Origin: a virus
DNA length: 24,198 bases
Strand: one strand, 5' to 3'
IMG/VR virus record: IMGVR_UViG_3300042731_000336
Coordinates: 1-24,198 of that record
The first letter of the stretch is position 1; each line of letters starts with the position of its first letter. Below the pieces are notes generated by a model that saw nothing but the letters and a program-made list of their open reading frames with translations, ran no database searches and was not told the DNA's origin. This document shows positions 3,109 through 24,198 of this stretch, piece by piece. The position numbers were made by a program, and so were the translations under genes.

Positions 3109-3137
3109 TTGACAACCTTATCTCAGTGCTATATAAT
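3109..3137 (+). promoter_or_regulatory. Consensus sigma-70 promoter of the DNA methyltransferase gene, with operator-like repeat
   Basis: TTGACA (3109-3114), 17-base spacer, TATAAT (3132-3137), both hexamers perfect. Transcription should start near 3144, leaving a leader of about 20 bases with AAAGG (3154-3158) 6 bases before the ATG. CAGTGC (3124-3129) and GCACTG (3140-3145) form an inverted repeat centred on the -10 element, a possible repressor site. Confidence 0.9.
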
Positions 3138-6981: not shown

Positions 6982-7005
6982 GGGGGTTGACAACAACCCC
7001 CTTTT
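6982..7005 (+). terminator. Intrinsic terminator overlapping the polymerase promoter
   Basis: Eight-base-pair stem GGGGGTTG (6982-6989), loop ACAA, CAACCCCC (6994-7001), then TTTT (7002-7005). It ends the ParB-like gene's transcript. The -35 hexamer of the next promoter is embedded in its loop side. Confidence 0.9.
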
Positions 7006-7015
7006 CATTTATAAT
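6987..7015 (+). promoter_or_regulatory. Consensus sigma-70 promoter of DNA polymerase, predicted leaderless
   Basis: TTGACA (6987-6992), 17-base spacer, TATAAT (7010-7015). The polymerase ATG starts at 7023, only 7 bases after the -10, where transcription itself should begin. The mRNA would then start at or within a base of the AUG. No Shine-Dalgarno precedes the ATG, in agreement. Confidence 0.85.
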
Positions 7016-7022
7016 GGTGCCC

Positions 7023-9488: not shown

Positions 9489-9514
9489 CTCGTACACTAA
9501 GTGTATGATATAAT
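9485..9514 (+). promoter_or_regulatory. Promoter of the primase-like gene, predicted leaderless
   Basis: TTGACT (9485-9490) overlaps the polymerase stop. An 18-base spacer leads to TATAAT (9509-9514) with an extended -10 (TGA before it). The ATG at 9522 is 7 bases after the -10, the same spacing as at the polymerase. The spacer contains the palindrome TACACT-A-AGTGTA (9493-9505). Confidence 0.85.
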
Positions 9515-9521
9515 ACAGCAC

Positions 9522-12381: not shown

Positions 12382-13366
12382 GTTCTTCACAGAGAAAGAT
12401 ATGGTACCGACCGACGTTCCAATGGTGAACGTCGCTTTGTCCGGTTCCGTAAATGGTGGTGTGACGCCTGGGCTGACAGTCCTTGCGGGCCCATCGAAAC
12501 ACTTCAAGACATCATTCGCATTACTTATGGCAGGTGCGTATCTAAACGCCAAACCAGATGCGGTGATGTTGTTTTATGATTCGGAGTTCGGTTCTCCGCA
12601 GTCATACTTTGAGCAGTTCGGGATAGATACTGACCGCGTACTGCACACACCGATTGCAAACGTCGAGGAACTCAAGTTCGACTTGGTCAACCAGTTAGAA
12701 GAACTAGACCGTGAGGATGACGTGGTTATTGTCATCGACTCGATTGGTAACCTTGCGTCCAAGAAAGAACTAGAAGACGCACTGAATGAGAAAGGTGTCG
12801 CAGACATGTCTCGTGCGAAATCTCTTAAAGGTCTGTTCCGTATGGTCACTCCATACTTGACCATGAAAGATATTCCTTTACTTGCAATCAACCACACTTA
12901 CAAAGAGATCGGCTTGTTCCCGAAAGATGTTGTTGGTGGCGGTACGGGTATTTACTACTCGGCCGACAACATCTGGATCATCGGTCGTCAACAAGAGAAA
13001 CAAGGTACTGAGGTTGTTGGATACAACTTCGTAATCAATGTAGAGAAATCCCGTTATGTCAAAGAGAAGTCGAAGATTCCTATCGGAGTTTCGTGGGAAG
13101 GGGGTGTTCAAAAGTATAGTGGTCTTCTCGACATCGCTCTTGCTGGTGGTTATGTTGTTAAGCCTTCTAACGGTTGGTATCAAAAAGTTGACACAACTAC
13201 AGGCGAAGTCATTGGGAATAAAGTACGAACAAAGGACACCCTGAGCGGAGAGTTCTGGGAACCAGTGTTTGAGTCAACAGACTTTGCAGAATTCCTTGAA
13301 AAGACCTACAAGATAGGTTATAATAGCAACATCAATGCAGAGACCATTGTTGAGGAGGCAGTGTGA
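12314..13366 (+). CDS. uvsX: UvsX, RecA-like recombinase
   Basis: A 350-residue strand-exchange protein of the T4 UvsX/RecA family. It forms filaments on single-stranded DNA for recombination-dependent replication and repair. SQSKFFTEKDMVPTDVPM (20-37) and NVALSG match T4 UvsX closely. Walker A is AGPSKHFKTS (58-67), Walker B is VVIVIDSIGN (137-146), and NHTYKE, GGGTGIYYSADNIWIIG and NVEKSRYVKEKSK are family blocks. It is about 40 residues shorter than T4 UvsX (391), mainly at the acidic C-terminus. Start at 12314 is backed by GGAG at 12304-12307, although this overlaps ugd by 68 bases; an in-frame ATG at 12323 is less well placed. Confidence 0.97.
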   Translation: MSIMDKLKKNSKIKETETLSQSKFFTEKDMVPTDVPMVNVALSGSVNGGVTPGLTVLAGPSKHFKTSFALLMAGAYLNAKPDAVMLFYDSEFGSPQSYFEQFGIDTDRVLHTPIANVEELKFDLVNQLEELDREDDVVIVIDSIGNLASKKELEDALNEKGVADMSRAKSLKGLFRMVTPYLTMKDIPLLAINHTYKEIGLFPKDVVGGGTGIYYSADNIWIIGRQQEKQGTEVVGYNFVINVEKSRYVKEKSKIPIGVSWEGGVQKYSGLLDIALAGGYVVKPSNGWYQKVDTTTGEVIGNKVRTKDTLSGEFWEPVFESTDFAEFLEKTYKIGYNSNINAETIVEEAV

Positions 13367-13716
13367 GTGAACTTGATTTAGATAAACCAAACGAGGCTAT
13401 CGACTACCAGTTGATACCCGAAATCGTAGATGATGAACAACTATGGAAGGTCCGTCTACTACGTGCGCCGTTTGACCAAACAACGATACGTTTTAAGAAC
13501 GTACAGATAGACAGTGAGAATGAACGTCTCACTTTTAACTTCACCATTGTAGAAGGTGATGACTTTACTGAGGACAATGCAGAACTTCAAGAGTTTGCTG
13601 CCGCAGTATTATCAGACATCATCAACACTGCAGTAAAAGAAGGTTGGTTAGGAACACGAGAGACAGATGACGGAAATAAATCTACAACAGACGATTCTTC
13701 GGAATCTACTGACTAA
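13363..13716 (+). CDS. Hypothetical acidic protein between uvsX and helicase
   Basis: A 117-residue protein of unknown function. It starts with GTG at 13363, sharing GTGA with the uvsX stop, with a strong GAGGAGG Shine-Dalgarno at 13352-13358. The fold looks like mixed strands (LWKVRLLRAPF, TIRFKNVQI, RLTFNFTIVEGDD) followed by a helix (AELQEFAAAVLSDIINTAVKEG) and a Ser/Thr/Asp-rich disordered tail. The tail is encoded over the 50 bases shared with the helicase gene. A small gene sits between uvsX and gene 41 in several T4-like marine phages. Its place suggests a role linked to recombination or helicase loading, but that is inference. Confidence 0.75.
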   Translation: MSELDLDKPNEAIDYQLIPEIVDDEQLWKVRLLRAPFDQTTIRFKNVQIDSENERLTFNFTIVEGDDFTEDNAELQEFAAAVLSDIINTAVKEGWLGTRETDDGNKSTTDDSSESTD

Positions 13717-15061
13717 CGATTCATATACACGGAAGGTTGCGGCCTTCCTATCCCCTGAATATTTCGAAGGTGTATACAAGGGACTCTTCAAAGAGTTCAC
13801 GTCGTTTATTGCGAAATACAATAAACTACCTAGTATGGAATCCTTCAAGATCGAGGTGGATGAGGCTGATCGTTTACCGGAAGAACAGTATCGCATGGCG
13901 ATGGACATTCTTCCGGACATCTTCACATACTCTGAAGAAAACCTTGATTGGTTGGTAGAACGTACTGAGAAGTGGTGTCAAGACCGTGCGGTATTCAATG
14001 CGGTCATGGAGTCGATTCAGATCATCGACGGTAAACACCAGACCTTGAGTAAGAATGCGATCCCTGACGTGTTGTCTAAGGCGCTGTCCGTATCGTTTGA
14101 TACTAACATCGGTCACGACTACATCGACAATGCGGATCAACGATTCGACTTCTATCATCTCGATGAGGAACGTCTAGCGTTCGATCTGGACTACTTTAAC
14201 AAGATCACCAAGGGTGGACTACCTAACAAGACTCTGAACATCGCTCTGGCAGGTACAGGGGTTGGTAAGTCATTGTTCATGTGTCATCAGGCTGCGTCTG
14301 CTCTGAGTATGGGTAAGAACGTTCTGTACATCACTATGGAGATGTCCGAAGAACGGATCGCAGAACGTATCGACGCAAACCTACTGAACGTACCGATTGA
14401 TCAGTTGGAGTTGTTATCAAAAGATATGTTCACGCAGAAGGTGCACAACGTCGCGCACAAGACCGATGGTAAACTGATCATCAAAGAGTACCCGACGGGT
14501 AGTGCACACGCGAATCACTTCCGTGCGTTACTGAACGAATTGAAACTGAAGAAAAACTTTATTCCGGATATCATCTTTGTTGATTATCTGAATATCTGCG
14601 CGAGTGCGCGTATGAAGGGGATGGGTGGTGCTATTAACTCGTATACATATGTCAAGTCTATTGCTGAGGAGTTACGTGGTCTCGCCGTGGAATTCGACGT
14701 GCCGATCGTGTCTGCAACACAGACGACGCGTTCTGGTTACTCTAATGACGATGTGGGGCTGGAAGATACGTCCGAATCTTTTGGACTACCCGCAACCGCC
14801 GACTTCATGTTCGCACTCATTACCAATGATGAACTCAAGGCTGCTGGACAAATACTTGTCAAACAGTTGAAGAATAGATATAACGATCCAGGCCTCCACC
14901 AAAGGTTCGTGATCGGTGTAGATAGATCCAAGATGCGTTTGTATGATGTTGACCAAAACGACTCGCCCCTAAATAAAGATGAAGATAATGGTGCAGCGTT
15001 TGATAATTCTGCTACAGGTCAAAGACTGTCGCAGGAAAGGTTTTCAGATTTCAAACTATAA
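13667..15061 (+). CDS. 41: DnaB-like replicative helicase (T4 gp41-like)
   Basis: A 464-residue hexameric 5'-3' DNA helicase of the gp41/DnaB group, which unwinds ahead of the polymerase and works with a primase. The N-terminal domain (about 1-145) is helical. The RecA-fold ATPase core has Walker A AGTGVGKS (195-202), the H1a-like ITMEMSEERIAERIDANLL (222-240), Walker B FVDYLNI (304-310, D306), and the sensor block VSATQTTRSGY. The C-terminal tail ends LSQERFSDFKL. Length is near T4 gp41 (475). It overlaps the previous gene by 50 bases. AAGGAG of the next gene begins inside its stop codon region. Confidence 0.95.
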   Translation: MTEINLQQTILRNLLTNDSYTRKVAAFLSPEYFEGVYKGLFKEFTSFIAKYNKLPSMESFKIEVDEADRLPEEQYRMAMDILPDIFTYSEENLDWLVERTEKWCQDRAVFNAVMESIQIIDGKHQTLSKNAIPDVLSKALSVSFDTNIGHDYIDNADQRFDFYHLDEERLAFDLDYFNKITKGGLPNKTLNIALAGTGVGKSLFMCHQAASALSMGKNVLYITMEMSEERIAERIDANLLNVPIDQLELLSKDMFTQKVHNVAHKTDGKLIIKEYPTGSAHANHFRALLNELKLKKNFIPDIIFVDYLNICASARMKGMGGAINSYTYVKSIAEELRGLAVEFDVPIVSATQTTRSGYSNDDVGLEDTSESFGLPATADFMFALITNDELKAAGQILVKQLKNRYNDPGLHQRFVIGVDRSKMRLYDVDQNDSPLNKDEDNGAAFDNSATGQRLSQERFSDFKL

Positions 15062-15064
15062 GGA

Positions 15065-15079
15065 GATCCATTATGGATC
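15065..15079. repeat. 15-bp palindrome over a start codon
   Basis: GATCCAT-T-ATGGATC, seven-base arms with one central base. It covers the start codon (15073-15075) of the small membrane protein and touches the last base of its Shine-Dalgarno. A DNA-binding site or chance are both possible. Confidence 0.45.
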
Positions 15080-15252
15080 CATACCTACACACGTTTATTG
15101 CAATCATTATGCTTGCCTTCACATACTACTTTGGTATGTTTAAGGGCATGACGCGAGGTATACAAAACACATTAACACATCTGTTGAAGTACGGTGTACT
15201 CACCGAGGCAGATATTGAAGAGGCTAACCGAAGACATGAGAGAGACCGTTAA
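15073..15252 (+). CDS. 59-residue small membrane protein
   Basis: A short ORF beginning MDPYLHTFIAIIMLAFTYYFG, with one hydrophobic helix over residues about 7-22. A basic stretch (K24, R28) follows, then an amphipathic helix LTHLLKYGVLTEADIEEANRRHERDR, giving a probable cytoplasmic C-terminus. A perfect AAGGAG (15060-15065), overlapping the helicase stop codon, lies 7 bases before the ATG, and codon use is like its neighbours. It is probably co-transcribed with the helicase. A membrane tether for replication proteins is one idea that its position invites; there is no direct support. Confidence 0.75.
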   Translation: MDPYLHTFIAIIMLAFTYYFGMFKGMTRGIQNTLTHLLKYGVLTEADIEEANRRHERDR

Positions 15253-15276
15253 CGTCTAATTTCATGTAATCTAATC

Positions 15277-15951
15277 ATGAGTGAAGTAACTATTCGTAAT
15301 GCAGAACTCTTAGAGATCCTTGAGGGGTTCTCGCAAGAGATGCTGTCTAAACCGTCGTATAACGACGAAAAGTATTGGACCTTCCACGAGTGGCAGGATA
15401 TAGGTAAGGGCGAGTACTATTGTTCTCGTGACTACCTAGATGACTGTCTATCTCGTGAGGGTTTAATTGGCCCGCCTGATCGGTATTTCGCACAACCGAT
15501 TTCGAAAATGGTGCGAGAAGATAAGGAAATGTGGGAAGGGTTTATGCAGAGAGTGAAGTACGACTTCGCTGCAGAACTAGGTGCACACACATCTGCATTA
15601 CTCTCCTACTATCCGCCTGGGGGCTTCGTTGGGTGGCATACCAACTACGACGCGAACGCCTACCAAGTCTTATTCACGTGGTCGGAGACCGGAGACGGTT
15701 ACTTCCGATACTACGACAAACAAAAGGATGAGATTGTTACCATTCAGGATGTCCCTGGCTGGCAATGTCGTCACTTCTACTTCGGTGCAGAACAAGAAGA
15801 GGATCTGCACTGTTGGCACTCCGCATACGCAGGATGTCAACGAATCACACTTGCATACAAGTTCGTAAACAATGGAAGCATAAATAATCCGGAAGACGCA
15901 ATGGCGCGTACTCTACGCGATAGTTTGATCGAAGATATAGAGACTCCATAA
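15277..15951 (+). CDS. 2OG-Fe(II) oxygenase family protein
   Basis: A 224-residue protein with the double-stranded beta-helix pattern of 2-oxoglutarate/Fe(II) oxygenases. YPPGGFVGWHTNYDANAY (112-129) carries the first metal His (H121). In place of the usual HxD the sequence reads H-T-N, with D125 two residues later. The second half has the distal His H181 (CWHSAY) and R189 (QRITLAYKF), the likely 2-oxoglutarate ligand. I recall related proteins in T4-like cyanophages with a similar HTN, so this may be a family trait rather than a defect. Substrate unknown. The stop overlaps the next start by one base (TAATG). Confidence 0.7.
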   Translation: MSEVTIRNAELLEILEGFSQEMLSKPSYNDEKYWTFHEWQDIGKGEYYCSRDYLDDCLSREGLIGPPDRYFAQPISKMVREDKEMWEGFMQRVKYDFAAELGAHTSALLSYYPPGGFVGWHTNYDANAYQVLFTWSETGDGYFRYYDKQKDEIVTIQDVPGWQCRHFYFGAEQEEDLHCWHSAYAGCQRITLAYKFVNNGSINNPEDAMARTLRDSLIEDIETP

Positions 15952-16742
15952 TGTTACTAACCGCTGGATGCAGTTTCGTCTGGGGAGACGAACTAGAAGG
16001 TTTTGATAAGAACCCCCCAACTCACCAAAAACTTACTTGGACCCACCTACTCGCAGAGCGTTTAGGTATGGACTACATCAACATGGGTATCTGTGGGTCT
16101 TGTAACGACCGTATCTTTCGTCACGTTACGGATTACCTACACAACCCTGAGAACGAGAAACCTTCTCTCGTTATTGTGATATGGTCTGCGTGGCAACGTA
16201 AGGAACTGGTAGAACACATGGCACCTAATCGCGAGTGGGCCATGGGTGTCAATCGACCAGAGAACGCAACACAGTATTCTCCGGTGCGCACTAAGGTTCT
16301 TGCGAGTCGTCGCACACGCGAGATACTTGATGAGTATTACACGACTACGTACGACAGTCGCACCGACATCATGCACGGTCTCACTCAGATGAAGGCTGTA
16401 GAGTTGATGTGTGACGCATTAGGTATCCCTGTTATTCAGGGTGTGTTTCATAGTCGTTGCTGGGCGAACGTACTCTCTGTACTTAAAGGTAAAGGCGCAC
16501 ACGATGACGGTGAGGCGGTAGAACATAAGTTCCTTGGTGAGACACCTGAGTACGCACGATGGGTTAAGGACGCACTAGGGTCACTCAGATCTACTAGTCG
16601 TTTGGGACTAGGTCGCGGTCCATCACTATATCAAATCGGTAAAAAAATAGATGATATCAAGGAGTTCGGGCACCCAGGCGAACGCACACAGGAGCTTTGG
16701 GCCGAACTAATGGAAAATACCTATAAAGATATGATATCCTGA
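15951..16742 (+). CDS. SGNH/GDSL-like hydrolase
   Basis: A 263-residue probable SGNH-fold esterase or acyl hydrolase. Block I is LTAGCSFVWGDE (3-14) with nucleophile Ser8, block II NMGICGSCNDRI (44-55) with the oxyanion Gly/Asn, block III the hydrophobic strand VIVIWSAWQR (74-83), and block V FGHPGERTQELW (239-250) with His241. No signal peptide is present, so it acts in the cytoplasm or as a virion component. Such proteins, common in marine T4-like phages, may de-acylate surface glycans; target unknown. It follows the oxygenase with a one-base overlap. Confidence 0.75.
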   Translation: MLLTAGCSFVWGDELEGFDKNPPTHQKLTWTHLLAERLGMDYINMGICGSCNDRIFRHVTDYLHNPENEKPSLVIVIWSAWQRKELVEHMAPNREWAMGVNRPENATQYSPVRTKVLASRRTREILDEYYTTTYDSRTDIMHGLTQMKAVELMCDALGIPVIQGVFHSRCWANVLSVLKGKGAHDDGEAVEHKFLGETPEYARWVKDALGSLRSTSRLGLGRGPSLYQIGKKIDDIKEFGHPGERTQELWAELMENTYKDMIS

Positions 16743-16754
16743 ATATTTTATTTG

Positions 16755-16762
16755 TATAAATA
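16755..16762 (+). promoter_or_regulatory. T4-type late promoter motif
   Basis: TATAAATA, the full T4 late promoter -10 octamer read by gp55-type sigma, in the 43-base gap before the P-loop kinase gene. No -35 is expected for this class. Start of transcription should be near 16769, just ahead of the CGGAG Shine-Dalgarno at 16776-16780. Confidence 0.65.
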
Positions 16763-16785
16763 ATCTTATCGAACACGGAGTATGT

Positions 16786-17469
16786 ATGTTAACCTTTAAG
16801 TCATTTTTGAATGAAGGGGTCAATGACCCTGCCATCTTCAAGGCAATCTTCCTTGCGGGTGGGCCAGGATCTGGTAAGTCCTTCATCGTCGGTAAGACCG
16901 GACTGACTTCTATGGGTTACAAGGTTGTTAACTCCGACGATGCGTTCGAATCTGCCATGAAGAAGGTTGGTATGGAGATGACTCCGGACAACATTTTCTC
17001 ACCGAAGGGTCAAGAACTTCGTGGTAAGGCAAAGAAACTAACTGGCAAGAAAGAAGAGCGTTACCTGAAGGGACGCCTTGGTCTTGTCGTAGACGGTACT
17101 GGTAAAGATCCAGACAAAATCGCAGCACAGGCACAGAAGGTTAAAGATCTAGGTTACGATGTCGCAATGATATTCGTCAACACAGACCTAGACACTGCAT
17201 TACAACGTAACCGTATGCGTGCCCGTTCACTCCCTGACAAAGAAGTCGAATCGTATTGGAAGGCGGTACAGGCCAATACGGGTAAGTTCCAGCAGATGTT
17301 TGGAAAACAAAACTTCTTGGTGGTGGACAACTCCGAAGGTAAAGATTATAATCAAGAAACCCTACGCGCATATCGCGATGCAAAGAAATTCACTAACGGT
17401 CCACACTCTGCGAAGGCAAAGCGTTGGATTGAGGTGGAGAAGCAGGCAATCAAGAGGGTGAAGGGCTAG
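16786..17469 (+). CDS. Zeta-toxin-like P-loop kinase with a capsid-targeting-like N-terminus
   Basis: A 227-residue ATP-dependent kinase-like protein. Walker A is AGGPGSGKS (24-32). VVNSDDAF (47-54) and VVDGTG (101-106) match the pattern of zeta toxins and polynucleotide-kinase-like enzymes, and RNRMRAR (141-147) is a likely lid with phosphate-binding arginines. The first ten residues, MLTFKSFLNE, followed by Gly, resemble the T4 capsid-targeting sequence (MKTYQEFIAE in internal protein III). They end with L-x-E, the consensus of the gp21 prohead protease. With the late promoter just upstream, this suggests an enzyme packaged in the head and delivered with the DNA. Substrate unknown. Start backed by CGGAG at 16776-16780; a terminator lies about 100 bases downstream. 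Confidence 0.8.
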   Translation: MLTFKSFLNEGVNDPAIFKAIFLAGGPGSGKSFIVGKTGLTSMGYKVVNSDDAFESAMKKVGMEMTPDNIFSPKGQELRGKAKKLTGKKEERYLKGRLGLVVDGTGKDPDKIAAQAQKVKDLGYDVAMIFVNTDLDTALQRNRMRARSLPDKEVESYWKAVQANTGKFQQMFGKQNFLVVDNSEGKDYNQETLRAYRDAKKFTNGPHSAKAKRWIEVEKQAIKRVKG

Positions 17470-17567
17470 TAAGGTTTAGTGACCTATAGTGATGAGTTTG
17501 TCATACAGAGGCGACTAAATTAGATTATTAATATTATAGACAAAGTGACATTCGTTATGTCTATTCC

Positions 17568-17595
17568 AAGAGGGACCTTCGGGTCCCTTTTTTTT
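17568..17595 (+). terminator. Strong intrinsic terminator with UUCG loop
   Basis: Stem GGGACC (17572-17577), TTCG tetraloop, GGTCCC (17582-17587), extendable by flanking A-T pairs, followed by eight T residues. It closes the kinase transcript. The gap before it (17470-17567) holds only a TAGACA/TGTCTA inverted repeat near 17537-17563 and no credible ORF. Confidence 0.95.
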
Positions 17596-17606
17596 GGCAA
17601 AAGCCC

Positions 17607-17635
17607 TTGACAAACCGCTAAACACCTAGTATACT
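17607..17635 (+). promoter_or_regulatory. Sigma-70 promoter of the small-gene cluster, flanked by an inverted repeat
   Basis: TTGACA (17607-17612), 17-base spacer, TATACT (17630-17635). TTGACAAA (17607-17614) and TTTGTCAA (17639-17646) form a perfect 8-base inverted repeat from the -35 to just past the start point. GAGAGG (17651-17656) serves the ATG at 17663. Confidence 0.85.
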
Positions 17636-17662
17636 CTCTTTGTCAAGTGAGAGAGGTACATT

Positions 17663-17878
17663 ATGAATAATCCATTGTTAGAACTCCTAGAGATGAAAGT
17701 CAAGTCGCATGACTGGTACTACCAGTACTCTGACGATCATCGTATGTGGGTAAGAGGTAAAGATCAACGACACGTCATAGACAATATGATGAAAGATCTT
17801 TTTGCGGCGGGTCTCGAAGCAGAGGCTATCGAAGTCTATAACGCAAACTGTCCCGAAGACTACAGGATCAAGTCATGA
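17663..17878 (+). CDS. Small hypothetical protein
   Basis: A 71-residue soluble protein of unknown function, first gene after the promoter at 17607. Residues 14-30 carry an aromatic-rich stretch (SHDWYYQYSDDHRMWVRG), followed by an amphipathic helix (HVIDNMMKDLFAAGLEAEAIEVYN) and a short C-terminal segment ending PEDYRIKS. No cysteine pair, signal or known catalytic motif. Good Shine-Dalgarno, and ATGA overlap with the next gene, so translation is probably coupled. The size and style match small conserved early proteins of T4-like phages. Confidence 0.8.
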   Translation: MNNPLLELLEMKVKSHDWYYQYSDDHRMWVRGKDQRHVIDNMMKDLFAAGLEAEAIEVYNANCPEDYRIKS

Positions 17879-18081
17879 GACACGTTCTGTTTGCATTCCT
17901 TTCCATAGGTATCCTTATCCTAGCGTTTCACCAGCGGATAGAGAACGGTGCAGCGGACACTCTGGTTATGGCTGGAGTCCTCCCTGCGATGTTGTATTTG
18001 ATGTTGAATGGTAGTCACGTGGTGATGGGATTTTCCTATATAAAGCATAGGAAGTATACTCGTATAAGAGGTAAGGAGTAA
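17875..18081 (+). CDS. Small two-helix membrane protein
   Basis: A 68-residue inner-membrane protein with two hydrophobic segments, residues about 4-18 (VLFAFLSIGILILAF) and 27-45 (DTLVMAGVLPAMLYLMLNG), and a basic C-terminus (KHRKYTRIRGKE) likely in the cytoplasm. Function unknown. Because a cell-wall hydrolase is encoded 700 bases downstream in the same direction, a holin-type role is possible, but small membrane proteins are common in such clusters and no holin signature exists to test. It begins inside the upstream stop (ATGA). Confidence 0.7.
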   Translation: MRHVLFAFLSIGILILAFHQRIENGAADTLVMAGVLPAMLYLMLNGSHVVMGFSYIKHRKYTRIRGKE

Positions 18082-18083
18082 AA

Positions 18084-18356
18084 ATGTTTGAGCCAGGAGA
18101 TAACGTCGTCTTGATTGACGACACACGAGAGATCGTGGACTTCGGTTCGGTCATTTCCATCAACGATGACGTTGTCGTCATTCGTTCTGAAGATAATAAT
18201 GAGTACGTGGGTTACGGACTTGACACGGTCGATGTTTTGCGTTACCGACTAGTAGAAGAGGAAGAGGTACAACTGTTACCCGCCCCTGACCCAGCGGACC
18301 ACATTTGTTCAGTCTTAGATATATATAATAAGTATAACAAATATACTTGTCATTAA
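18084..18356 (+). CDS. Small beta-rich hypothetical protein
   Basis: A 90-residue protein with an SH3/KOW-like start: FEPGDNVVLIDDTREIVDFGSV, then VISINDDVVVIR and NNEYVGYGLDTVDVLRYRLV, the alternating pattern of a small beta-barrel. The tail is acidic and then Asn/Tyr-rich (VLDIYNKYNKYTCH). AAGGAG at 18073-18078 gives a firm start. The last codons include a 7-base-pair hairpin (18330-18348). Function unknown; SH3-like barrels often bind nucleic acid or protein partners. Confidence 0.7.
   Translation: MFEPGDNVVLIDDTREIVDFGSVISINDDVVVIRSEDNNEYVGYGLDTVDVLRYRLVEEEEVQLLPAPDPADHICSVLDIYNKYNKYTCH
18330..18348 (+). repeat. Hairpin at the 3' end of the SH3-like gene
   Basis: AAGTATA (18330-18336), loop ACAAA, TATACTT (18342-18348), in a very AT-rich stretch. 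No T-run follows, so it is more likely an RNA stability or translation element for the GTG start at 18376 than a terminator. Confidence 0.4.
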
Positions 18357-18375
18357 TATCTAACGGGAATCTAAC

Positions 18376-18777
18376 GTGCAGTACTTCTTAGTATTCTGTA
18401 TAATTGCCACTGCCATTCTGTTCTATATTGAACGTCGCGTTAACGTTAGATTCTTCAACTCACATGTAGACCATATCACTGCGTACGATAGAAAGTACAT
18501 CGAAGGACATGAGAACCATATGTCCGGAACTTTGGTGAATGGTGATTTGATATTCGCAGGCATAAACTCACATGGTGACCCGACGTACATGAAGGGTCGC
18601 GCAAAGTTGTTTGGCCGCGTGTTTGTACTCTGGGGATATTTCCACGGGTACAAGAAATACCCTAACGGTCGGTTCATTGCAGCCATGGCATGGAAGGGTG
18701 ATAAAAAGATAACGATGGTGGCACCTTCATCATTGAAGGAGTTACTTTTGGTGTCGGTTGATTATGAGGAAATATGA
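18376..18777 (+). CDS. Hypothetical protein with N-terminal membrane anchor
   Basis: A 133-residue protein starting with GTG. Residues 3-18 (YFLVFCIIATAILFYI) form a signal-anchor helix, followed by basic ERRVNVR. The remaining 110 residues are soluble, with strands and many aromatic residues (LVNGDLIFAGINSHGDPTYM, RVFVLWGYFHGYKKYPNGRF, KKITMVAPSSLKELLLVSVDYEEI). No known motif recognised. By the positive-inside rule the C-terminal part after the basic segment may be cytoplasmic. The Shine-Dalgarno is weak (CGGGA). It overlaps the cell-wall hydrolase start by 4 bases, so it may work in the same cell-envelope step. Confidence 0.7.
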   Translation: MQYFLVFCIIATAILFYIERRVNVRFFNSHVDHITAYDRKYIEGHENHMSGTLVNGDLIFAGINSHGDPTYMKGRAKLFGRVFVLWGYFHGYKKYPNGRFIAAMAWKGDKKITMVAPSSLKELLLVSVDYEEI

Positions 18778-19262
18778 TGAAATATTTGATGGTCGCGGTT
18801 CTTATAGTGATCTTTGGTGTCGCATACAGTCAGGCCCAAGATAACGAAGAGAACCACGAGTTGACGTGCCTTGCGCTCAACATCTACCACGAGGCAAGGT
18901 CAGAAAGTCTTGCAGGTCAATACGCAGTTGCGGACGTAGTACTCAATCGAGTCGAGTCCACTATCTACCCCAACACCATTTGCGGTGTTGTCTATCAAGG
19001 TAAAATGTGGGAAGGTCACCCCGTACGGGACAAGTGTCAGTTCAGTTGGTTCTGTGACGGTAAGTCAGACCAACCTAAAGAGAAAGACGCATGGTACCGC
19101 TCACTCATCGTTGCAGTTAACATCTTACACGAGAACAAGTACCGAGGCCTGACCGAAGGTGCAACTCACTACCACACCGATTACGTCAACCCGCATTGGA
19201 ATAAGACTATGTACTTCATAGGACGTATCGGTGACCACCTATTTTATTTGGAGACACGATGA
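18774..19262 (+). CDS. SleB-type cell-wall hydrolase with signal peptide
   Basis: A 162-residue exported peptidoglycan hydrolase of the SleB/Hydrolase_2 family, thought to be a lytic transglycosylase. Residues 1-21 form a Sec signal (hydrophobic core LMVAVLIVIFGVAY, probable cleavage after SQA). The domain starts with CLALNIYHEARSES (32-45, catalytic Glu40) and contains QYAVADVVLNRV, the Cys-bearing TICGVVYQ and CQFSWFCDG, and GATHYHTDYVNPHW with the closing GDHLFY. It may be a phage endolysin exported by the host Sec system. The second ATG (18777) is better spaced from GAGGA at 18766-18770 than the first. ATGA overlap downstream. Confidence 0.88.
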   Translation: MMKYLMVAVLIVIFGVAYSQAQDNEENHELTCLALNIYHEARSESLAGQYAVADVVLNRVESTIYPNTICGVVYQGKMWEGHPVRDKCQFSWFCDGKSDQPKEKDAWYRSLIVAVNILHENKYRGLTEGATHYHTDYVNPHWNKTMYFIGRIGDHLFYLETR

Positions 19263-19486
19263 TATTAGAATGTTTGATGTGCGTTGCATTGGAGCAACCA
19301 CCTAAGTTTGATCAACCGACGGAAACGCAGAGAGTCGTCCGTGAGATGTTTTCAAAACATTACGGTAAACCAAAGAAAACGATCACCCACAGACGCGTGG
19401 TCATTAACGTCGATCGACGTACAAATTTTGTCATATCTAGGAAACGTGATCGATTCTTTACTGTTGTACATTACTTCAGTTTGTGA
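19259..19486 (+). CDS. Small basic hypothetical protein
   Basis: A 75-residue ORF coupled to the hydrolase by ATGA. The N-terminus carries two cysteines (ILECLMCVALEQ). The rest is basic (QRVVREMFSKHYGKPKKTITHRRVVINVDRRTNF), which would suit nucleic-acid binding, with a strand-like end (FTVVHYFSL). No family recognised. No separate Shine-Dalgarno beyond GGAG upstream, so it probably depends on coupled translation. It could also be a lysis accessory given its neighbour; neither idea has motif support. Confidence 0.6.
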   Translation: MILECLMCVALEQPPKFDQPTETQRVVREMFSKHYGKPKKTITHRRVVINVDRRTNFVISRKRDRFFTVVHYFSL

Positions 19487-19492
19487 TATAAT
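19464..19492 (+). promoter_or_regulatory. Extended -10 promoter overlapping a Shine-Dalgarno
   Basis: TTGTAC (19464-19469, weak), 17-base spacer, TGA then TATAAT (19487-19492). The AGGAG Shine-Dalgarno (19493-19497) of the next gene follows at once. A transcript starting near 19499 would lack it and have a 4-5 base leader, while read-through mRNA would keep it. Confidence 0.6.
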
Positions 19493-19503
19493 AGGAGCAT
19501 ATT

Positions 19504-19653
19504 ATGAGTGAGTTAGACGTTATCTTAGGAATCCTCGCATCGTTTGGTGTGGCCATCGGTCTGGTGGTGGTTCCTGTACTCGTACTCAAGGGATGGGACC
19601 GTTACGTTAGACGTAAAGGCATTAGTGTAAACTCAGGCGCGAAGTTTGGATGA
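19504..19653 (+). CDS. 49-residue single-pass membrane protein
   Basis: A short ORF (MSELDVILGILASFGVAIG then LVVVPVLVLKGWDRYVRRKG) with one long hydrophobic helix, residues about 6-28, followed by a basic cytoplasmic-type segment (KGWDRYVRRK). The start has AGGAG at 19493-19497 spaced 6 bases, and its end overlaps the next gene by 4 bases (ATGA). Function unknown. Its small size, single helix and nearness to the cell-wall hydrolase make it one possible holin or antiholin candidate among several small membrane proteins here. Confidence 0.7.
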   Translation: MSELDVILGILASFGVAIGLVVVPVLVLKGWDRYVRRKGISVNSGAKFG

Positions 19654-19907
19654 GTATCGGAGACGCATTTCCAAAAGGTTTCTACGGAGATGATGTATAC
19701 GACGAAAGTAAAGTATACATACTATTCGACAAGATAGGTGGGCTCATCGCAGTCTACCGATCCGCACAACGTGCAATCGATCGAGCTGCAAACGAGGTCT
19801 GTAAGGACCGACTATATAGCAGTGTACATGTAGACGCATACGACTATGTGATCTACGTGCAGGGTGACTTGGGGGAGGTCACCATAATAGTAGAAGATGT
19901 AAATTAG
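19650..19907 (+). CDS. Small hypothetical protein
   Basis: An 85-residue soluble acidic protein. Pattern: strand KVYILFDKIGGLIAVYRS, helix AQRAIDRAANEVCKD, then strands VHVDAYDYVIYVQGD and EVTIIVEDVN, suggesting a compact alpha/beta fold. No recognised family or catalytic motif. It is translationally coupled to the small membrane protein before it. It is the last gene of the 17663-19907 cluster; no terminator hairpin is seen before the aceA promoter that begins at 19911. Confidence 0.7.
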   Translation: MSIGDAFPKGFYGDDVYDESKVYILFDKIGGLIAVYRSAQRAIDRAANEVCKDRLYSSVHVDAYDYVIYVQGDLGEVTIIVEDVN

Positions 19908-19910
19908 TTG

Positions 19911-19940
19911 TTGACACTCACATGATGTATCGCGTATAAT
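19911..19940 (+). promoter_or_regulatory. Promoter of isocitrate lyase with palindrome centred on the -10
   Basis: TTGACA (19911-19916), 18-base spacer, TATAAT (19935-19940), both hexamers perfect. CGCGTAT-A-ATACGCG (19931-19945) is a 15-base palindrome lying over the -10, a typical place for a repressor site. The leader is about 20 bases; GGAAC (19956-19960) is a weak Shine-Dalgarno. Confidence 0.88.
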
Positions 19941-19966
19941 ACGCGCAAGTTAAATGGAACTTTGTT

Positions 19967-21208
19967 ATGAAAAAACGAAACTACTCACCAGAAGACGTGC
20001 GTCGTCTTCAAGGAACGGTGCAGATCGATCATACCCTCGCGAAGATGGGCGCAAAGAAACTGCGACAACTCTTCGAGGATCACGAATACATTAATACCTT
20101 TGGAGCTTACAATGGACAACAGGCAGTCCAACACGTCAAGGCCGGACTCAAGGCCATCTATCTCTCAGGGTGGCAAGTTGCCGCGTCTGCGAACTCTCAC
20201 AATGAGGTTTACCCAGATCAGTCTTTGTACGCTGTTGATAGCGTCCCTAACGTTGTCCGCAGTATCAATAATGCCTTCCGACGACAAGACCAAATCGAAT
20301 ATCTTGAGTCTGGAGAAGGATTTGAATTTGCACCTATTATTGCCGATGCTGAGGCAGGATTCGGGGGTGTTCTAAATGCGTATGAACTTGCAAGAAATCT
20401 TATCGAGGCAGGTGCTGCCGCTGTTCACTTCGAAGACCAAGTGGCTGCCGAGAAGAAGTGCGGACACCTTGGAGGAAAGGTTCTTATCCCTACTAGTCAG
20501 GCTATACGCAATCTTAACGCCGCTCGCCTTGCTAGTGACGTTGCTGGCACCGATACTGTTGTTATCGCTCGCACTGACGCCGAGTCTGCGAAACTAATCT
20601 CTAGTAACATCTCAGACATCGATAAACCATTCATTAGGAGATCTGCGCAAGGTAGTGCAGGCTCTATTCAACATCGTACACAGGAAGGATTCTATCAACT
20701 ACAAGAGGGTAGGGGGTTAGAGTTCGGTTGTGTGCGCGGTCAGGCCTACGCAGAATACGCGGACCTTGTTTGGTGTGAAACATCAACACCAGACCTGAAG
20801 GATGCGAAACGTTTTGCGGATGCGGTCAAAGGTGCAGTTCCAGACGCGATGCTCGCGTACAACTGTTCACCATCATTCAACTGGCGCAAGTCAATACCAG
20901 GCGATCAAGAACTAAAAGAGTTCCAGAGAGAACTAGGTCGTATGGGATTCAAGTTCCAGTTTATTACTCTGGCGGGGTTTCACCAGACTAACTATGCAGT
21001 CTTTGATTTCGCGAACCGATACAAAGATGAGGGGATGTATGCTTACAGTTTATTACAGGAGGCAGAGTTCGATGCAGAAGAACGTGGATACACAGGAGCC
21101 AAGCACCAGAGAGAAGTTGGTGTCGGTTATTTCGACGCCATTACTACGACTTTGGGATCTACTTCAACCGCGGCAATGTCTGGTTCGACCGAAGAGGAGC
21201 AGTTCTGA
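19967..21208 (+). CDS. aceA: Isocitrate lyase
   Basis: A 413-residue isocitrate lyase, the glyoxylate-shunt enzyme splitting isocitrate into succinate and glyoxylate; normally a cytoplasmic Mg2+-dependent tetramer. Nearly the whole bacterial AceA sequence is present: AIYLSGWQVAA (63-73), YPDQSLY (82-88), PIIADAEAGFGGVLNAYEL (123-141), HFEDQ (154-158), the signature KKCGH (163-167) with catalytic Cys165, VIARTDAESA, YADLVWCETSTPDL, LAYNCSPSFNW, KFQFITLAGFH and the C-terminal GSTEEEQF. Compared with E. coli AceA (434) only the N-terminus is shorter. No catalytic loss or frameshift is visible. Codons lean to CTT/GCT/GCC more than neighbours, suggesting later acquisition. No malate synthase in the window. 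It has its own promoter and 3' hairpin. Confidence 0.96.
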   Translation: MKKRNYSPEDVRRLQGTVQIDHTLAKMGAKKLRQLFEDHEYINTFGAYNGQQAVQHVKAGLKAIYLSGWQVAASANSHNEVYPDQSLYAVDSVPNVVRSINNAFRRQDQIEYLESGEGFEFAPIIADAEAGFGGVLNAYELARNLIEAGAAAVHFEDQVAAEKKCGHLGGKVLIPTSQAIRNLNAARLASDVAGTDTVVIARTDAESAKLISSNISDIDKPFIRRSAQGSAGSIQHRTQEGFYQLQEGRGLEFGCVRGQAYAEYADLVWCETSTPDLKDAKRFADAVKGAVPDAMLAYNCSPSFNWRKSIPGDQELKEFQRELGRMGFKFQFITLAGFHQTNYAVFDFANRYKDEGMYAYSLLQEAEFDAEERGYTGAKHQREVGVGYFDAITTTLGSTSTAAMSGSTEEEQF

Positions 21209-21214
21209 GGCAAC

Positions 21215-21238
21215 CCCAAACAAATGTGTTTGGGATTT
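21215..21238 (+). terminator. Hairpin after isocitrate lyase, probable terminator
   Basis: Eight-base stem CCCAAACA (21215-21222), loop AATG, TGTTTGGG (21227-21234), followed by ATTT only. It starts 7 bases after the aceA stop. The short T-run makes it a weaker terminator, or a 3'-end stabiliser allowing read-through to the next gene. Confidence 0.65.
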
Positions 21239-21263
21239 AGAAAATGAAGGATAGGAGACAATT

Positions 21264-21647
21264 ATGTCTAATGAAAGTTTTGTGGTACAAAATGGTCTGG
21301 ATGTCACTGGTGACGCAGACGTTACGGGGACTGTAACTGCGAATGCATTCGTAGGTGACGGTTCGGGTCTTACTGGTATTTCTGGTGCAACTACTGTATC
21401 TGGTACTGTGGATGGTCACTTGATCCCAGATACTAATGCGGCATATGATTTAGGTAATGCGGAATATAAGTTCCGTCACTTGTATTTGTCTAACAACTCT
21501 CTGTACGCAGAAAGCGGCAGACTGTCGTTTGCAGGTGGTCAGCTGACTTTCCGTGACGACCCAGTTCTTATGTTGTCTGACGTACAACGCATTGCGGCTG
21601 AGTCAAACACGTTCGAAGAGTTTAAGAACGCATTGAGTGCATTGTAA
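21264..21647 (+). CDS. Virion-type repeat protein (tail fibre/structural-like)
   Basis: A 127-residue protein with the low-complexity beta pattern of phage fibre and neck proteins: VQNGLDVTGDADVTGTVTAN then AFVGDGSGLTGISG, DTNAAYDLGNAEYKFRHLYL (a motif recurring in fibre proteins near 'DLG...W/FR.lYls'), and a C-terminal helix (DVQRIAAESNTFEEFKNALSAL). No chaperone or receptor domain. Probably a short structural or fibre-associated protein made late, although no late promoter octamer is seen upstream. Start firm by AGGAG at 21253-21257. Overlaps the next ORF by one base (TAATG). Confidence 0.7.
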   Translation: MSNESFVVQNGLDVTGDADVTGTVTANAFVGDGSGLTGISGATTVSGTVDGHLIPDTNAAYDLGNAEYKFRHLYLSNNSLYAESGRLSFAGGQLTFRDDPVLMLSDVQRIAAESNTFEEFKNALSAL

Positions 21648-21940
21648 TGAATATCGCCGAGTCACCTATTTCTAAAACAGGTAATACTGACTGGGACAAA
21701 ACATTCAATGAGTGTTTTTGGGAAAACATGAGACAAGTGATGTGGAGTCACTCATGTATGTTCAACGGACAACACTACGTCGCAAAGGGTTACGAATGTA
21801 ACTGGTGTGGGTGTAAGGAAGAAGATGAACCGAAACCGGACTACGTTGAAGTTGTAGGTGACATCGGTCGCACTCCATCAGCTGTGGATGATGCCGCAGA
21901 TGTGATGAGTGGGTACAAGCGTTTTAAAAGGATTGAATAA
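21647..21940 (+). CDS. Hypothetical protein with Cys cluster
   Basis: A 97-residue protein of unknown function. The middle part is rich in Cys, Trp and His (FNECFWENMRQVMWSHSCMF, GQHYVAKGYECNWCGCKEED). CNWCGC gives a CxxCxC group that might bind zinc with the earlier Cys/His residues. The C-terminal third is acidic then basic (KRFKRIE). The start overlaps the previous stop by one base, and no clear Shine-Dalgarno is present, so translation is probably coupled. Confidence 0.65.
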   Translation: MNIAESPISKTGNTDWDKTFNECFWENMRQVMWSHSCMFNGQHYVAKGYECNWCGCKEEDEPKPDYVEVVGDIGRTPSAVDDAADVMSGYKRFKRIE

Positions 21941-22143
21941 TGCCAGTCAAATATAAAAGGAGTAATGTCTCTAAGAGTCGCAAAGCGAAGACTCCAACAA
22001 AACATTTTTACATGCATCAACTAGACAACACTCAACTCTGGGCTGAGTTCGATGCATGTCGTGAACCTAAGTATCAGAACAAGATGCGTAACGAACTATA
22101 CAAGCGTGGATTCCGACACGAGGATTTCGTCGCACGTGGGTGA
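21940..22143 (+). CDS. Small basic hypothetical protein
   Basis: A 67-residue protein with a very basic N-terminus (VKYKRSNVSKSRKAKTPTKH) followed by a helical segment (DNTQLWAEFDACREPKYQNKMRNELYKRGF). AAAGGA lies 9 bases before the ATG, inside the preceding gene, and the start shares one base with that gene's stop. Small basic proteins like this are common in T4-like genomes and may bind nucleic acid; I recognise no specific family. Confidence 0.7.
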   Translation: MPVKYKRSNVSKSRKAKTPTKHFYMHQLDNTQLWAEFDACREPKYQNKMRNELYKRGFRHEDFVARG

Positions 22144-22285
22144 GTTTGGTTTACTTGCAGTATTTTTGTGTCCTATGGTCTTTGGTGGTATTACCATGTA
22201 TTACTCACACAAGGCCATACACAAAGCAACCTTAGATAGGTGGGGGATAAATGAAGTTCAAGATAATCTACAGGAGCGAGACTGA
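22136..22285 (+). CDS. Probable 49-residue membrane protein with GTG start
   Basis: From a GTG at 22136 the frame reads a polar start (VGEFG), a hydrophobic helix (LLAVFLCPMVFGGITMYY, about 6-23) and a polar, charged tail (KATLDRWGINEVQDNLQERD). GAGG near 22122 is the only Shine-Dalgarno candidate and is rather far. It fills the gap between two well-supported genes and overlaps them by 8 and 35 bases. The longer frame from 22052 lacks a ribosome site and overlaps more. Moderately supported; function unknown. Confidence 0.5.
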   Translation: MGEFGLLAVFLCPMVFGGITMYYSHKAIHKATLDRWGINEVQDNLQERD

Positions 22286-22628
22286 ATCCATTTTTCCGTG
22301 GAAGTCTCGTTATAGAGGTGTTGTACTTTGGCCTTATGTCATCATGCGACCAAAGAAATACGAGACCGGACAGATTGCGCAATCAGAGATGATGAATCGT
22401 CGTTCGTTGGTTAAGTTGTATCGTCATGAACTGCAACACGTGTATCAGATAAAACAAAGGGGTGTCATCTTATTTTACTTACGATACGTCCTTCTCAGTT
22501 TGGTAAAGGGGTATCAGAATCATCCCGATGAAATTGAGGCGAGACAGTACGAGAACGAGAAGTTGACCCCTATTGAAGAGAAGTGGCTCCACGAAGGGGT
22601 CATCAACCTACGCGATCTGGACGACTGA
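22251..22628 (+). CDS. Small HExxH putative zinc metallopeptidase
   Basis: A 125-residue protein with YRHELQHVYQIKQRG (57-71), which contains the zinc motif HExxH (H59, E60, H63). It is followed about 30 residues later by HPDEIEARQYENEKL (91-105), where E94 or E96 could be the third ligand as in gluzincin-type proteins. A hydrophobic stretch (VILFYLRYVLLSLV, 72-85) between them may be the core helix or membrane-associated. GGGGG at 22241-22245 precedes the ATG. No signal peptide, so any peptidase activity would be cytoplasmic or in the virion. Its 3' end overlaps the convergent minus-strand gene by 21 bases. Confidence 0.65.
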   Translation: MKFKIIYRSETESIFPWKSRYRGVVLWPYVIMRPKKYETGQIAQSEMMNRRSLVKLYRHELQHVYQIKQRGVILFYLRYVLLSLVKGYQNHPDEIEARQYENEKLTPIEEKWLHEGVINLRDLDD

Positions 22629-22892
22629 ACAGACGTTCGTCTTGTTGTCTACCTGAACGCGGATACGCGAATCTTTGTTGATTCGTCTACCTTGGTTCTT
22701 CACTACGACTTTCGAGTCGGGTGAAAGTTTTAGATTACAGTCGGTGTAAACCTTGACAGAGTCATGTGACTGTGATATAATTTGCACACTGTTTGACGAT
22801 ATAAGTATCTGATCGTCTTTGCAGATTGTGACTGAGTTTGCAAGTGCAGCTGGTGCGAATATAGATAACACCAGTAGAGTTAGATGTTTCAT
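22608..22892 (-). CDS. Exported small protein, the only minus-strand gene
   Basis: A 94-residue protein with a clear Sec signal peptide (MKHLTLLVLSIFAPAALA, cleavage after ALA) and a mature part of about 76 residues with three cysteines and alternating strands (DQILISSNSVQIISQSHDSVKVY, SKVVVKNQGRRINKDSRIRVQV). A consensus AGGAG (complement of 22900-22904) lies 7 bases before the ATG, which supports it as real despite its orientation. A possible promoter reads leftward (TCGCCA at 23000-22995, TATAAT at 22976-22971). The mature protein should be periplasmic; function unknown. A + strand promoter (22753) and terminator (22905) overlap its 5' half. Confidence 0.7.
   Translation of the reverse strand: MKHLTLLVLSIFAPAALANSVTICKDDQILISSNSVQIISQSHDSVKVYTDCNLKLSPDSKVVVKNQGRRINKDSRIRVQVDNKTNVCSVVQIA
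22753..22781 (+). promoter_or_regulatory. Consensus sigma-70 promoter antisense to the minus-strand gene
   Basis: TTGACA (22753-22758), 17-base spacer ending TGA (extended -10), TATAAT (22776-22781). Perfect hexamers. It points toward the tRNA genes but lies within the opposite-strand coding region. The spacer carries AGTCA-TG-TGACT (22760-22771). Confidence 0.8.
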
Positions 22893-22925
22893 TTGCTTTC
22901 TCCTATCGTCATCTCGACGATTTTT
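22788..22925 (+). ncRNA. Predicted antisense small RNA
   Basis: Bounded by the predicted start point of the promoter at 22753 and the terminator ending at 22925, giving about 138 nt. It has no ORF with a ribosome site and contains an internal hairpin (CTGGTG near 22849 with CACCAG). It is fully complementary to the first 105 coding bases, start codon and Shine-Dalgarno of the minus-strand gene. It is predicted, not known. Confidence 0.45.
22905..22925 (+). terminator. Intrinsic terminator between antisense promoter and tRNAs
   Basis: Stem ATCGTC (22905-22910), loop ATCTC, GACGAT (22916-22921), then TTTT (22922-22925). A six-pair stem of moderate strength. On the other strand the same hairpin sits just before the AGGAG of the exported protein gene and could affect its translation. 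Confidence 0.65.
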
Positions 22926-22994
22926 GTTGCCTCACGGCAGTAAATAGTATGACAGTTTTGTTACTGCTATATTATATATACGTTACATTAGTTT

Positions 22995-23070
22995 TGGCGA
23001 GTAGTTCAGTTGGTAGAACGCGTGACTGTTAATCACGTTGTCGCAGGTTCGAGCCCTGCCTCGCCAGCCA
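22995..23070 (+). tRNA. tRNA-Asn(GUU)
   Basis: Complete 76-base cloverleaf. Acceptor stem TGGCGAG/CTCGCCA, discriminator G, encoded CCA (23068-23070), D-arm with AGTTGGTAGA, anticodon GTT at 23028-23030 in the loop CTGTTAA with stem CGTGA/TCACG, and T-arm GCAGG-TTCGAGC-CCTGC. U1-A72 with G73 agrees with bacterial tRNA-Asn. Confidence 0.96.
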
Positions 23071-23073
23071 TTT

Positions 23074-23158
23074 GCGAGAGTGGTGGAATTGGTAGACACG
23101 CTGGTTTTAGGTACCAGTGCCGCAAGGCGTGAGAGTTCGAGTCTCTCCTTTCGCACCA
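23074..23158 (+). tRNA. tRNA-Leu(UAG)
   Basis: Complete 85-base class II tRNA. Acceptor GCGAGAG/CTTTCGC, discriminator A, encoded CCA (23156-23158), D-loop GGTGGAATTGGTAGACAC, anticodon TAG at 23108-23110 with stem CTGGT/ACCAG, a long variable arm (TGCCGCAAGGCG) and T-arm with GTTCGAGTC. It reads CUA and other CUN codons. It lies 3 bases after tRNA-Asn. Confidence 0.96.
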
Positions 23159-23182
23159 CATTATGATCAAGTGAGTTGAGTT

Positions 23183-23482
23183 ATGCCTAAACAAGGACGC
23201 GGTGACCCGATGGTGAGAGCAGACGGTCGCAACAAACCAGACCGTGAGTGGTACCCCGAAGATTTCGATTGGTACCTGAAGTGGGTCGCATCATTTTTTA
23301 TACTTGCATCCCTTGCTATGCGTTCCGCAGGGCCGGACTACCGAATGTATGATTTGGTGATCGGGTTCATCGGAATCATCTTGTGGACGTGGGTATCCGT
23401 CATCTGGAAAGACCGTGCGTTGATCATGTTGAACGCGGTATCTGGATTCATGATTTTGACTACTATATTGAGGGAGTGGTAA
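23183..23482 (+). CDS. Small multi-pass membrane protein
   Basis: A 99-residue protein with a hydrophilic, basic N-terminus (MPKQGRGDPMVRADGRNKPDREW) and three hydrophobic segments: about 31-46 (YLKWVASFFILASLAM), 56-75 (YDLVIGFIGIILWTWVSVIW) and 79-96 (ALIMLNAVSGFMILTTIL). N-in topology is likely. No signal peptide or enzyme motif. The start codon has only a weak ribosome site. It lies directly after the tRNA pair and is translationally linked to the next gene (TAATG). Function unknown; similar small membrane proteins occur in marine T4-like phages. Confidence 0.75.
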   Translation: MPKQGRGDPMVRADGRNKPDREWYPEDFDWYLKWVASFFILASLAMRSAGPDYRMYDLVIGFIGIILWTWVSVIWKDRALIMLNAVSGFMILTTILREW

Positions 23483-23829
23483 TGAAAAACGTTAAGGATC
23501 TGCGAGCTGATGGCTACGTGACTGAGGATGAGATCCCTAAGTTTAGTCTTGATGTTACAGGCATCAACTACAAGTTTAATGAGGACAAGTTGATCGCAGA
23601 ATTTGCGAAATATATTGACTCTACATATAATCAACACTACGCCAAAGAAAAATTTCAGGCGACCGAATTCATCATTGATGGGGGACATGGTACAGGTTTC
23701 TGTATCGGTAATGTTTTAAAATACGCACAACGTTACGGCAAGAAGGGGACCCGTGACGATGCGCGAAAGGACTTACTAAAGGTACTTCATTATGCGCTTA
23801 TTCAGCTACACGTTCACGATAGCGATTAG
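23482..23829 (+). CDS. DUF3310-like protein
   Basis: A 115-residue protein. The C-terminal half (FCIGNVLKYAQRYGKKGTRDDARKDLLKVLHYALIQL, about 70-106) matches the DUF3310 pattern GNxxKYxxRxxxKxxxxDxxKxxxY found in many phage proteins, sometimes annotated as nucleotide kinase or nucleotide-hydrolase related without firm evidence. The first half is less conserved (KDLRADGYVTEDEIPKFSLD). The start at 23482 overlaps the upstream stop by one base, with GAGGGAG a few bases before; the longer frame from 23383 is inside the membrane protein gene. It overlaps the lipoprotein gene by 38 bases. Confidence 0.7.
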   Translation: MKNVKDLRADGYVTEDEIPKFSLDVTGINYKFNEDKLIAEFAKYIDSTYNQHYAKEKFQATEFIIDGGHGTGFCIGNVLKYAQRYGKKGTRDDARKDLLKVLHYALIQLHVHDSD

Positions 23830-24172
23830 TCTATTCATCACCGGATGCGCATCATCTGGTGTCACCAATGCGTACCGTTACGGTACGGACAACTATAAGT
23901 TCCTAGAAAAGGAATACGAGAACTTGCATCCACAAGTTCACTTTGTTTTACTCAAAAACGAAGCCGAGTTCAATGCAGCCAGACGAAAGAATCTGGGAGT
24001 AGAATGGGATTCAGTGAGTGCGTTTACTCTCTGGATACCTGAGACCGGCGAGTGCACCGTGTTTATAAAGGATCCCGAGTGGCAGTGGGAACCTGAGTTG
24101 CTTGGACACGAAGTTGCACACTGTATATGGGGGAGATACCATAGGGGCAAAGAAGGCCTCAAACCATATTAG
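23792..24172 (+). CDS. Lipoprotein with HExxH zinc-peptidase motif
   Basis: A 126-residue protein with a lipoprotein signal: basic-hydrophobic start and lipobox FITG-C with Cys19, so it is probably exported and lipidated. The C-terminal region contains LGHEVAHCIWGRYHRG (104-119): zinc motif HExxH (H106, E107, H110) followed by G114 and H117. This resembles the metzincin pattern but with one residue too many. ECTVFIKDPEWQWEPEL precedes it. Likely a small envelope-localised metallopeptidase; target unknown. It starts inside the DUF3310 gene (38-base overlap, AAAGG before the ATG). The final G of its TAG stop is the first base of tRNA-Asp. Confidence 0.7.
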   Translation: MRLFSYTFTIAISLFITGCASSGVTNAYRYGTDNYKFLEKEYENLHPQVHFVLLKNEAEFNAARRKNLGVEWDSVSAFTLWIPETGECTVFIKDPEWQWEPELLGHEVAHCIWGRYHRGKEGLKPY

Positions 24173-24198
24173 GAGCGGTAGTTCAGTTGGTTAGAATA
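24172..24198 (+). tRNA. tRNA-Asp, 5' part only (cut by window end)
   Basis: The 27 bases starting GGAGCGG-TAGTTCAG-TTGGTTAGAATA match the 5' third of bacterial tRNA-Asp(GUC): acceptor strand, D-stem and D-loop. They differ from the E. coli sequence as I recall it by one base. The anticodon lies outside the window, so the identity is inferred from this match. Confidence 0.75.

Follow-up and report, generated by a model that had tools for sequence, protein, structure and literature searches.

The window, a 24,198-base stretch that makes up an entire virus record, carries an intact open reading frame of 413 residues with an ATG start (aceA, 19,967–21,208, plus strand), and the product of this gene is apparently a working isocitrate lyase (ICL). 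The glyoxylate shunt is a carbon-saving pathway, and ICL is its entry enzyme. On the sequence evidence set out below, we consider it probable that aceA is a phage auxiliary metabolic gene encoding a catalytically competent ICL, driven by a sigma-70 promoter and probably early, whose glyoxylate would pass to host enzymes and whose succinate would feed the quinone pool, with an alternative oxidase (AOX) serving as the drain in many of these phages.

The assignment draws on profile, PDB, Pfam, and residue evidence and on an AlphaFold model. The protein passes the cut-offs of two equivalog models, NCBIfam PRK15063 (3.8e-187, 622 bits, cut-off 562) and TIGR01346 (4.9e-152, 507 bits, cut-off 275.9), matches the Pfam ICL domain, and has as its best PDB matches bacterial isocitrate lyases throughout (E about 1e-154). 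We checked 19 substrate, metal, and catalytic residues, the mechanistic set of the Mtb ICL structures. All 19 are present, and none is substituted across 83 phage AceA proteins, where gaps arise from contig ends only. The KKCGH catalytic loop (residues 163–167, including Cys165; 20,453–20,467, plus strand) is likewise unsubstituted in these 83 sequences. The AlphaFold model (pLDDT 77.8) aligns with most solved bacterial ICLs at TM 0.85–0.90 and with the Mtb enzyme at about 0.89. The claim of the initial annotation, that this is a complete 413-residue AceA with a KKCGH active site, is therefore borne out by both profile cut-offs, the full residue set, and the ICL fold. An insert of about 10 residues (residues ~226–235; 20,642–20,671, plus strand) is seen in alignments to be shared by several phage subclades; it is missing from most bacterial ICLs, from the chromosomal relatives described below, and from other phage subclades. 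The gene is under purifying selection, with dN/dS of 0.04–0.06 for the window copy against five near relatives and of 0.06–0.10 in other phage pairs. No PHROGs family matches AceA, and ICL is not among the matches of the model in a viral structure library, the best of which are weak.

A perfect sigma-70 promoter (TTGACA-18-TATAAT, 12/12 match; 19,911–19,940, plus strand) lies 26 bp before the aceA ATG. The window holds five such perfect sites in all (at 3,109, 4,140, 6,987, 19,911, and 22,753), as against 0.06 expected. We note that the site at the DNA polymerase start would give nearly no leader, and that C48C1, a phage related to that of the window, is also rich in perfect sites. The aceA promoter is kept in the nearest relatives (L002, L003, and L006). 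Perfect sites occur no more than 500 nt upstream of aceA at 18 of 78 loci, compared with 5% of random stretches, and are limited to part of the phage clade. A tRNA-Glu gene precedes aceA in many near relatives, with about 20 nt between the two. On the 3′ side, downstream comparison identifies a remnant of a small membrane-protein gene (21,209–21,254, plus strand), its last ~15 codons ending in TPNKCVWDLENEG and a stop. This gene follows aceA or AOX in relatives and is intact in L167; because only its final codons are kept here, a deletion seems to have happened in the window. The promoter, the AOX, and the chromosomal relatives all go beyond what the initial annotation had covered.

In L167 the next gene 3′ of aceA encodes an AOX (PF01786, 232 bits), and in L031, L041, L070, and L167 AOX overlaps the aceA stop, so that in some of these phages the two genes are translationally coupled. 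Among aceA-bearing phage records, AOX is present in 14 of 40 and in four of the seven longer than 100 kb (it is absent from G003, G004, and G005); the pairing is not obligate. Wherever both genes were retrieved they lie on the same strand. An IMG/VR viral scan returned 68 AOX contigs, most having genes in common with C48C1. The cyanophage PTOX (PMC7472177) is also an AOX-superfamily quinol oxidase carried as a phage metabolic gene; the AOX here differs in that it matches C48C1 only among 50,697 phage records (E 1e-5; CDS0028, record positions 26,279–26,830, annotated hypothetical) and in that its phages lack psbA/psbD. In the relatives near the window with sufficient sequence (C48C1, G001, G002, G264, and G267), AOX lies ~16–20 kb upstream of aceA. 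It does not appear in the window, which has 20 kb upstream of aceA, and by synteny with C48C1 the AOX of the window phage would sit just beyond the left edge.

We propose the following scheme. To judge from the promoter, host sigma-70 RNA polymerase would probably transcribe aceA early in infection, and the phage ICL would split isocitrate into succinate and glyoxylate in competition with isocitrate dehydrogenase. The glyoxylate may go to host AceB, which we assume to be present, completing the shunt, or be converted to glycine by host transamination. The succinate would pass through succinate dehydrogenase to the quinone pool, and in many such phages AOX may drain the quinol to O2, so that flow could continue without Complex I or proton back-pressure. 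Together, phage ICL and AOX suggest a route from isocitrate via succinate and quinol to O2. It has been proposed that the glyoxylate shunt may send electrons via succinate dehydrogenase, bypassing Complex I under iron limitation (PMC11069385), and host aceA and aceB are reported, in work cited by PMC10452541, to rank among the most induced genes of phage-infected Pseudoalteromonas. Rerouting of host carbon by phage aceA is plausible and may benefit the phage.

Malate synthase (PF01274) was found in none of 15 aceA-bearing phage records, which include the complete C48C1 and five others (these six span 137–164 kb); the window's own genome is represented by a 24 kb fragment only. The PF01274 control was positive in 6 of 14 known genomes. 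The records thus hold no complete phage glyoxylate shunt of the aceBA type, and with AceB in 0/15 the shunt would need the host enzyme, a dependence that the initial annotation had already suggested and that stands. The same result favors the strongest alternative, which we regard as unlikely: that the main use of the enzyme is to provide glyoxylate for glycine, and so purines and serine for phage DNA, or to lower 2-oxoglutarate, rather than to run the shunt to malate. In L327, positions 7,664–13,472 hold nrdA, aceA, an FAD oxidoreductase (DAO family), and nrdB, a nucleotide-synthesis operon whose arrangement hints at a link of aceA with nucleotide supply, and a PhyH-type oxygenase of the window phage (Pfam; 1,612–2,310) would use up 2-oxoglutarate, from which ICL diverts flux. 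Against it, malate synthase accompanies this enzyme type in the chromosomal relatives, and the association with AOX suggests a role in respiration. A methylisocitrate lyase or other PEP-mutase superfamily activity is far less probable: the PrpB model also matches, but its 109 bits fall far short of its cut-off (354), while the two ICL models pass theirs at 622 and 507 bits and the ICL residue set is complete.

The initial annotation had placed aceA among the genes of a T4-like phage, and this holds. The plus strand carries a T4-like replication block assigned with PHROGs (6,987–15,061), in which two sugar genes lie between the T4-type DNA polymerase, primase, UvsX, and DnaB-like helicase genes, and, upstream of aceA, an endolysin or cell-wall hydrolase identified with PHROGs and further analysis (18,774–19,262). 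Elsewhere in the window, a 345-residue open reading frame (5,935–6,972) has no Pfam or PHROGs match, and another (15,277–15,951), without a Pfam match, looks from its sequence alone like a 2-oxoglutarate oxygenase. An independent 69.9 kb contig, L002, equals window positions 9,967–24,198 at 99.99% and spans both aceA junctions. L003 matches the window likewise, L006 matches it at 86–88% on either side of aceA, and C48C1, a complete circular phage genome of 156 kb, has an aceA copy that is 95.6% identical and labeled "hypothetical protein". The assembly chimera that the earlier annotation had named as a possible refutation is ruled out by L002, L006, and C48C1. The broader alternative, a chimera or else a recently captured passenger gene without function in the phage, is the least probable of those considered, since its somewhat atypical codon use (z = 3.3) is set against these contigs, relatives on over 150 viral contigs, and a dN/dS of about 0.05.

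The IMG/VR scan found 159 contigs with AceA relatives, and the 80 that were retrieved show 72–100% identity. Most retrieved phage aceA loci have further genes in common with C48C1, and two with few such genes, read directly, are also phages, one having a T4-type polymerase; the aceA-bearing contigs examined are mostly T4-like. Phage aceA is easily overlooked, being without a model in the reference phage families and labeled hypothetical in C48C1. We also observed phage one-piece tmRNA genes in L029 (1,886–2,223) and L033 (7,399–7,736), with the unusual tags ANDDNYYGDYALAA and ANDDSYYGDYALAA, respectively. Ordinary bacterial-type isocitrate lyase occurs in 80 more viral contigs (L217–L296), which may be of phage origin or contamination, with malate synthase near it in L289 only. 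Four entries of the phage collection (AGRM01000005, AFYI01000007, OR850939, and OR845679) carry an enterobacterial-type aceA; their sizes and, in some, an adjoining malate synthase suggest that they are bacterial DNA.

The nearest cultured relatives of the window-phage DNA polymerase and terminase are those of Synechococcus myoviruses, at only 47–49% identity, and C48C1 is filed by NCBI under Kyanoviridae (cyanophages). The photosystem D1/D2 genes psbA/psbD (PF00124) were found in 0 of 15 aceA-bearing phage records, which rules out a cyanophage with photosystem genes; a few true cyanophages likewise lack them (PMC7472177). The host of the window phage is likely a gammaproteobacterium. With SAR86 as the candidate, the 16S probe target was found in 0 of 16 genomes, from which 16S may be missing. 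The window tRNA-Leu has its best matches (92%) in MAGs G077 and G034, compared with 87% in the aceA-bearing bacterial family described below (one order searched), and thus lends that family no support as host.

The initial annotation had taken a richness in CTT, GCT, and GCC codons as a sign of later acquisition. The richness is real but modest: aceA differs from the rest of the window in CTT (33% vs 17%), GCT (23% vs 13%), and GCC (23% vs 10%), with z = 3.3. Later acquisition does not follow, because the phage AceA proteins form one deep clade, the DNA polymerase deviates further (z = 6.2), and aceA and polB of C48C1 are similar in codon use (distance 0.13); given the last two observations, the codon bias cannot be taken to indicate recent capture. 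Of ten genes compared between the window and C48C1, aceA is the least diverged at synonymous sites (pS 0.54 vs 0.66–0.86), and in some relatives it forms a block of higher similarity. We read this as cassette exchange among phages rather than recent bacterial capture; the aceA cassette seems to move between phages.

A bacterial donor had also been expected from AceA phylogeny, and the nearest bacterial copies look phage-derived instead. The closest bacterial AceA belongs to the single-cell genome AG-365-L08 (L086). A scan with it as query initially gave one locus only. It shares about 75% identity, all ICL residues, and a clade with the phage proteins, but lacks the 10-residue insert and belongs to a chromosomal locus, BI1-apbC-regulator-aceB-aceA, that includes malate synthase. 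An infected-cell artefact can be eliminated for L086, since it is surrounded by ordinary chromosomal genes, malate synthase among them, in an order also seen in other genomes. The phage-type aceA occurs in 7 of 11 genomes (1.1–1.6 Mb) of the AG-365-L08 family, a small-genome gammaproteobacterial group, within aceBA operons of the chromosome, immediately downstream of malate synthase, where the enzyme type presumably serves the glyoxylate shunt. No AOX was found in nine genomes of this family. Two of the chromosomal copies, G076 (L407) and G102 (L406), have stops or frame breaks, through possible decay or assembly error, which leaves five of the seven usable for the tree. Other genomes of the order have AceA at 60% identity or less, except for a contig of MAG G077 that looks like phage.

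In the tree, phage and AG-365-L08-family AceA form one clade (support 100/99). Within it the five chromosomal sequences are sister to phages L323–L325 (100/99), and phages L327, L329, and L331 branch outside the part that holds the chromosomal copies. An AU test rejects monophyly for the full set of phages (p = 0.0025) but not for the set that remains once the L327 group is taken out (p = 0.13 and 0.25). G042 keeps the BI1-apbC-regulator-aceB order, but an ordinary aceA fills the slot, and the aceB genes of the family, G042 included, form one clade (support 100), which together indicate that aceA was replaced within a conserved chromosomal operon. A third occupant, a distant isocitrate lyase-like gene of 27% identity, adjoins the same regulator in G091 (L408, 5,570–7,042). 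Repeated aceA transfers from unsampled bacteria are possible. Replacement from phage to host fits best, without being proven; this direction is the simplest, since apart from this family only phages were found to hold the type, and phage sequences flank the host copies in the tree. We advance tentatively, a little short of an even chance, the fuller reading that T4-like phages of marine Gammaproteobacteria carry ICL and AOX as a respiratory-carbon module, and that phage aceA, after long evolution, took the place of the native gene in the aceBA operon on the chromosomes of one bacterial family and became a core host gene.

Viral aceA as such is already known from reports of 2013, 2017, and 2026. 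Pacific Ocean viromes (Hurwitz 2013, PMC4053976) contain the glyoxylate-shunt genes aceA/aceB in marine virus fractions, there as gene families of the virome with no genome context for the window lineage. TARA_ERS478052_N000008 (179 kb; Nishimura 2017, PMC5332604) combines ICL with T4-like structural genes, as here, but has an aceBA operon including AceB, unlike the records tested here. Viruses of a proglacial lake (2026, PMC12783922) also carry aceA as an auxiliary gene, in freshwater sediment. The last two are likened by description. In the literature searched, we found nothing on how broad the lineage is, on a link with AOX, or on chromosomal aceA replacement, no paper on C48C1 or AG-365-L08, and none of relevance in which phage, alternative oxidase, and isocitrate lyase appear together.

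Isocitrate lyase in these T4-like phages, which are apparently not phages of cyanobacteria, is thus no stray capture but a conserved gene of long standing. Should the link with AOX hold, such phages would control the electron sink of the cell they infect as well as its carbon branch point. If aceA went from phage to host, a viral metabolic gene would have replaced a gene of central metabolism in situ.
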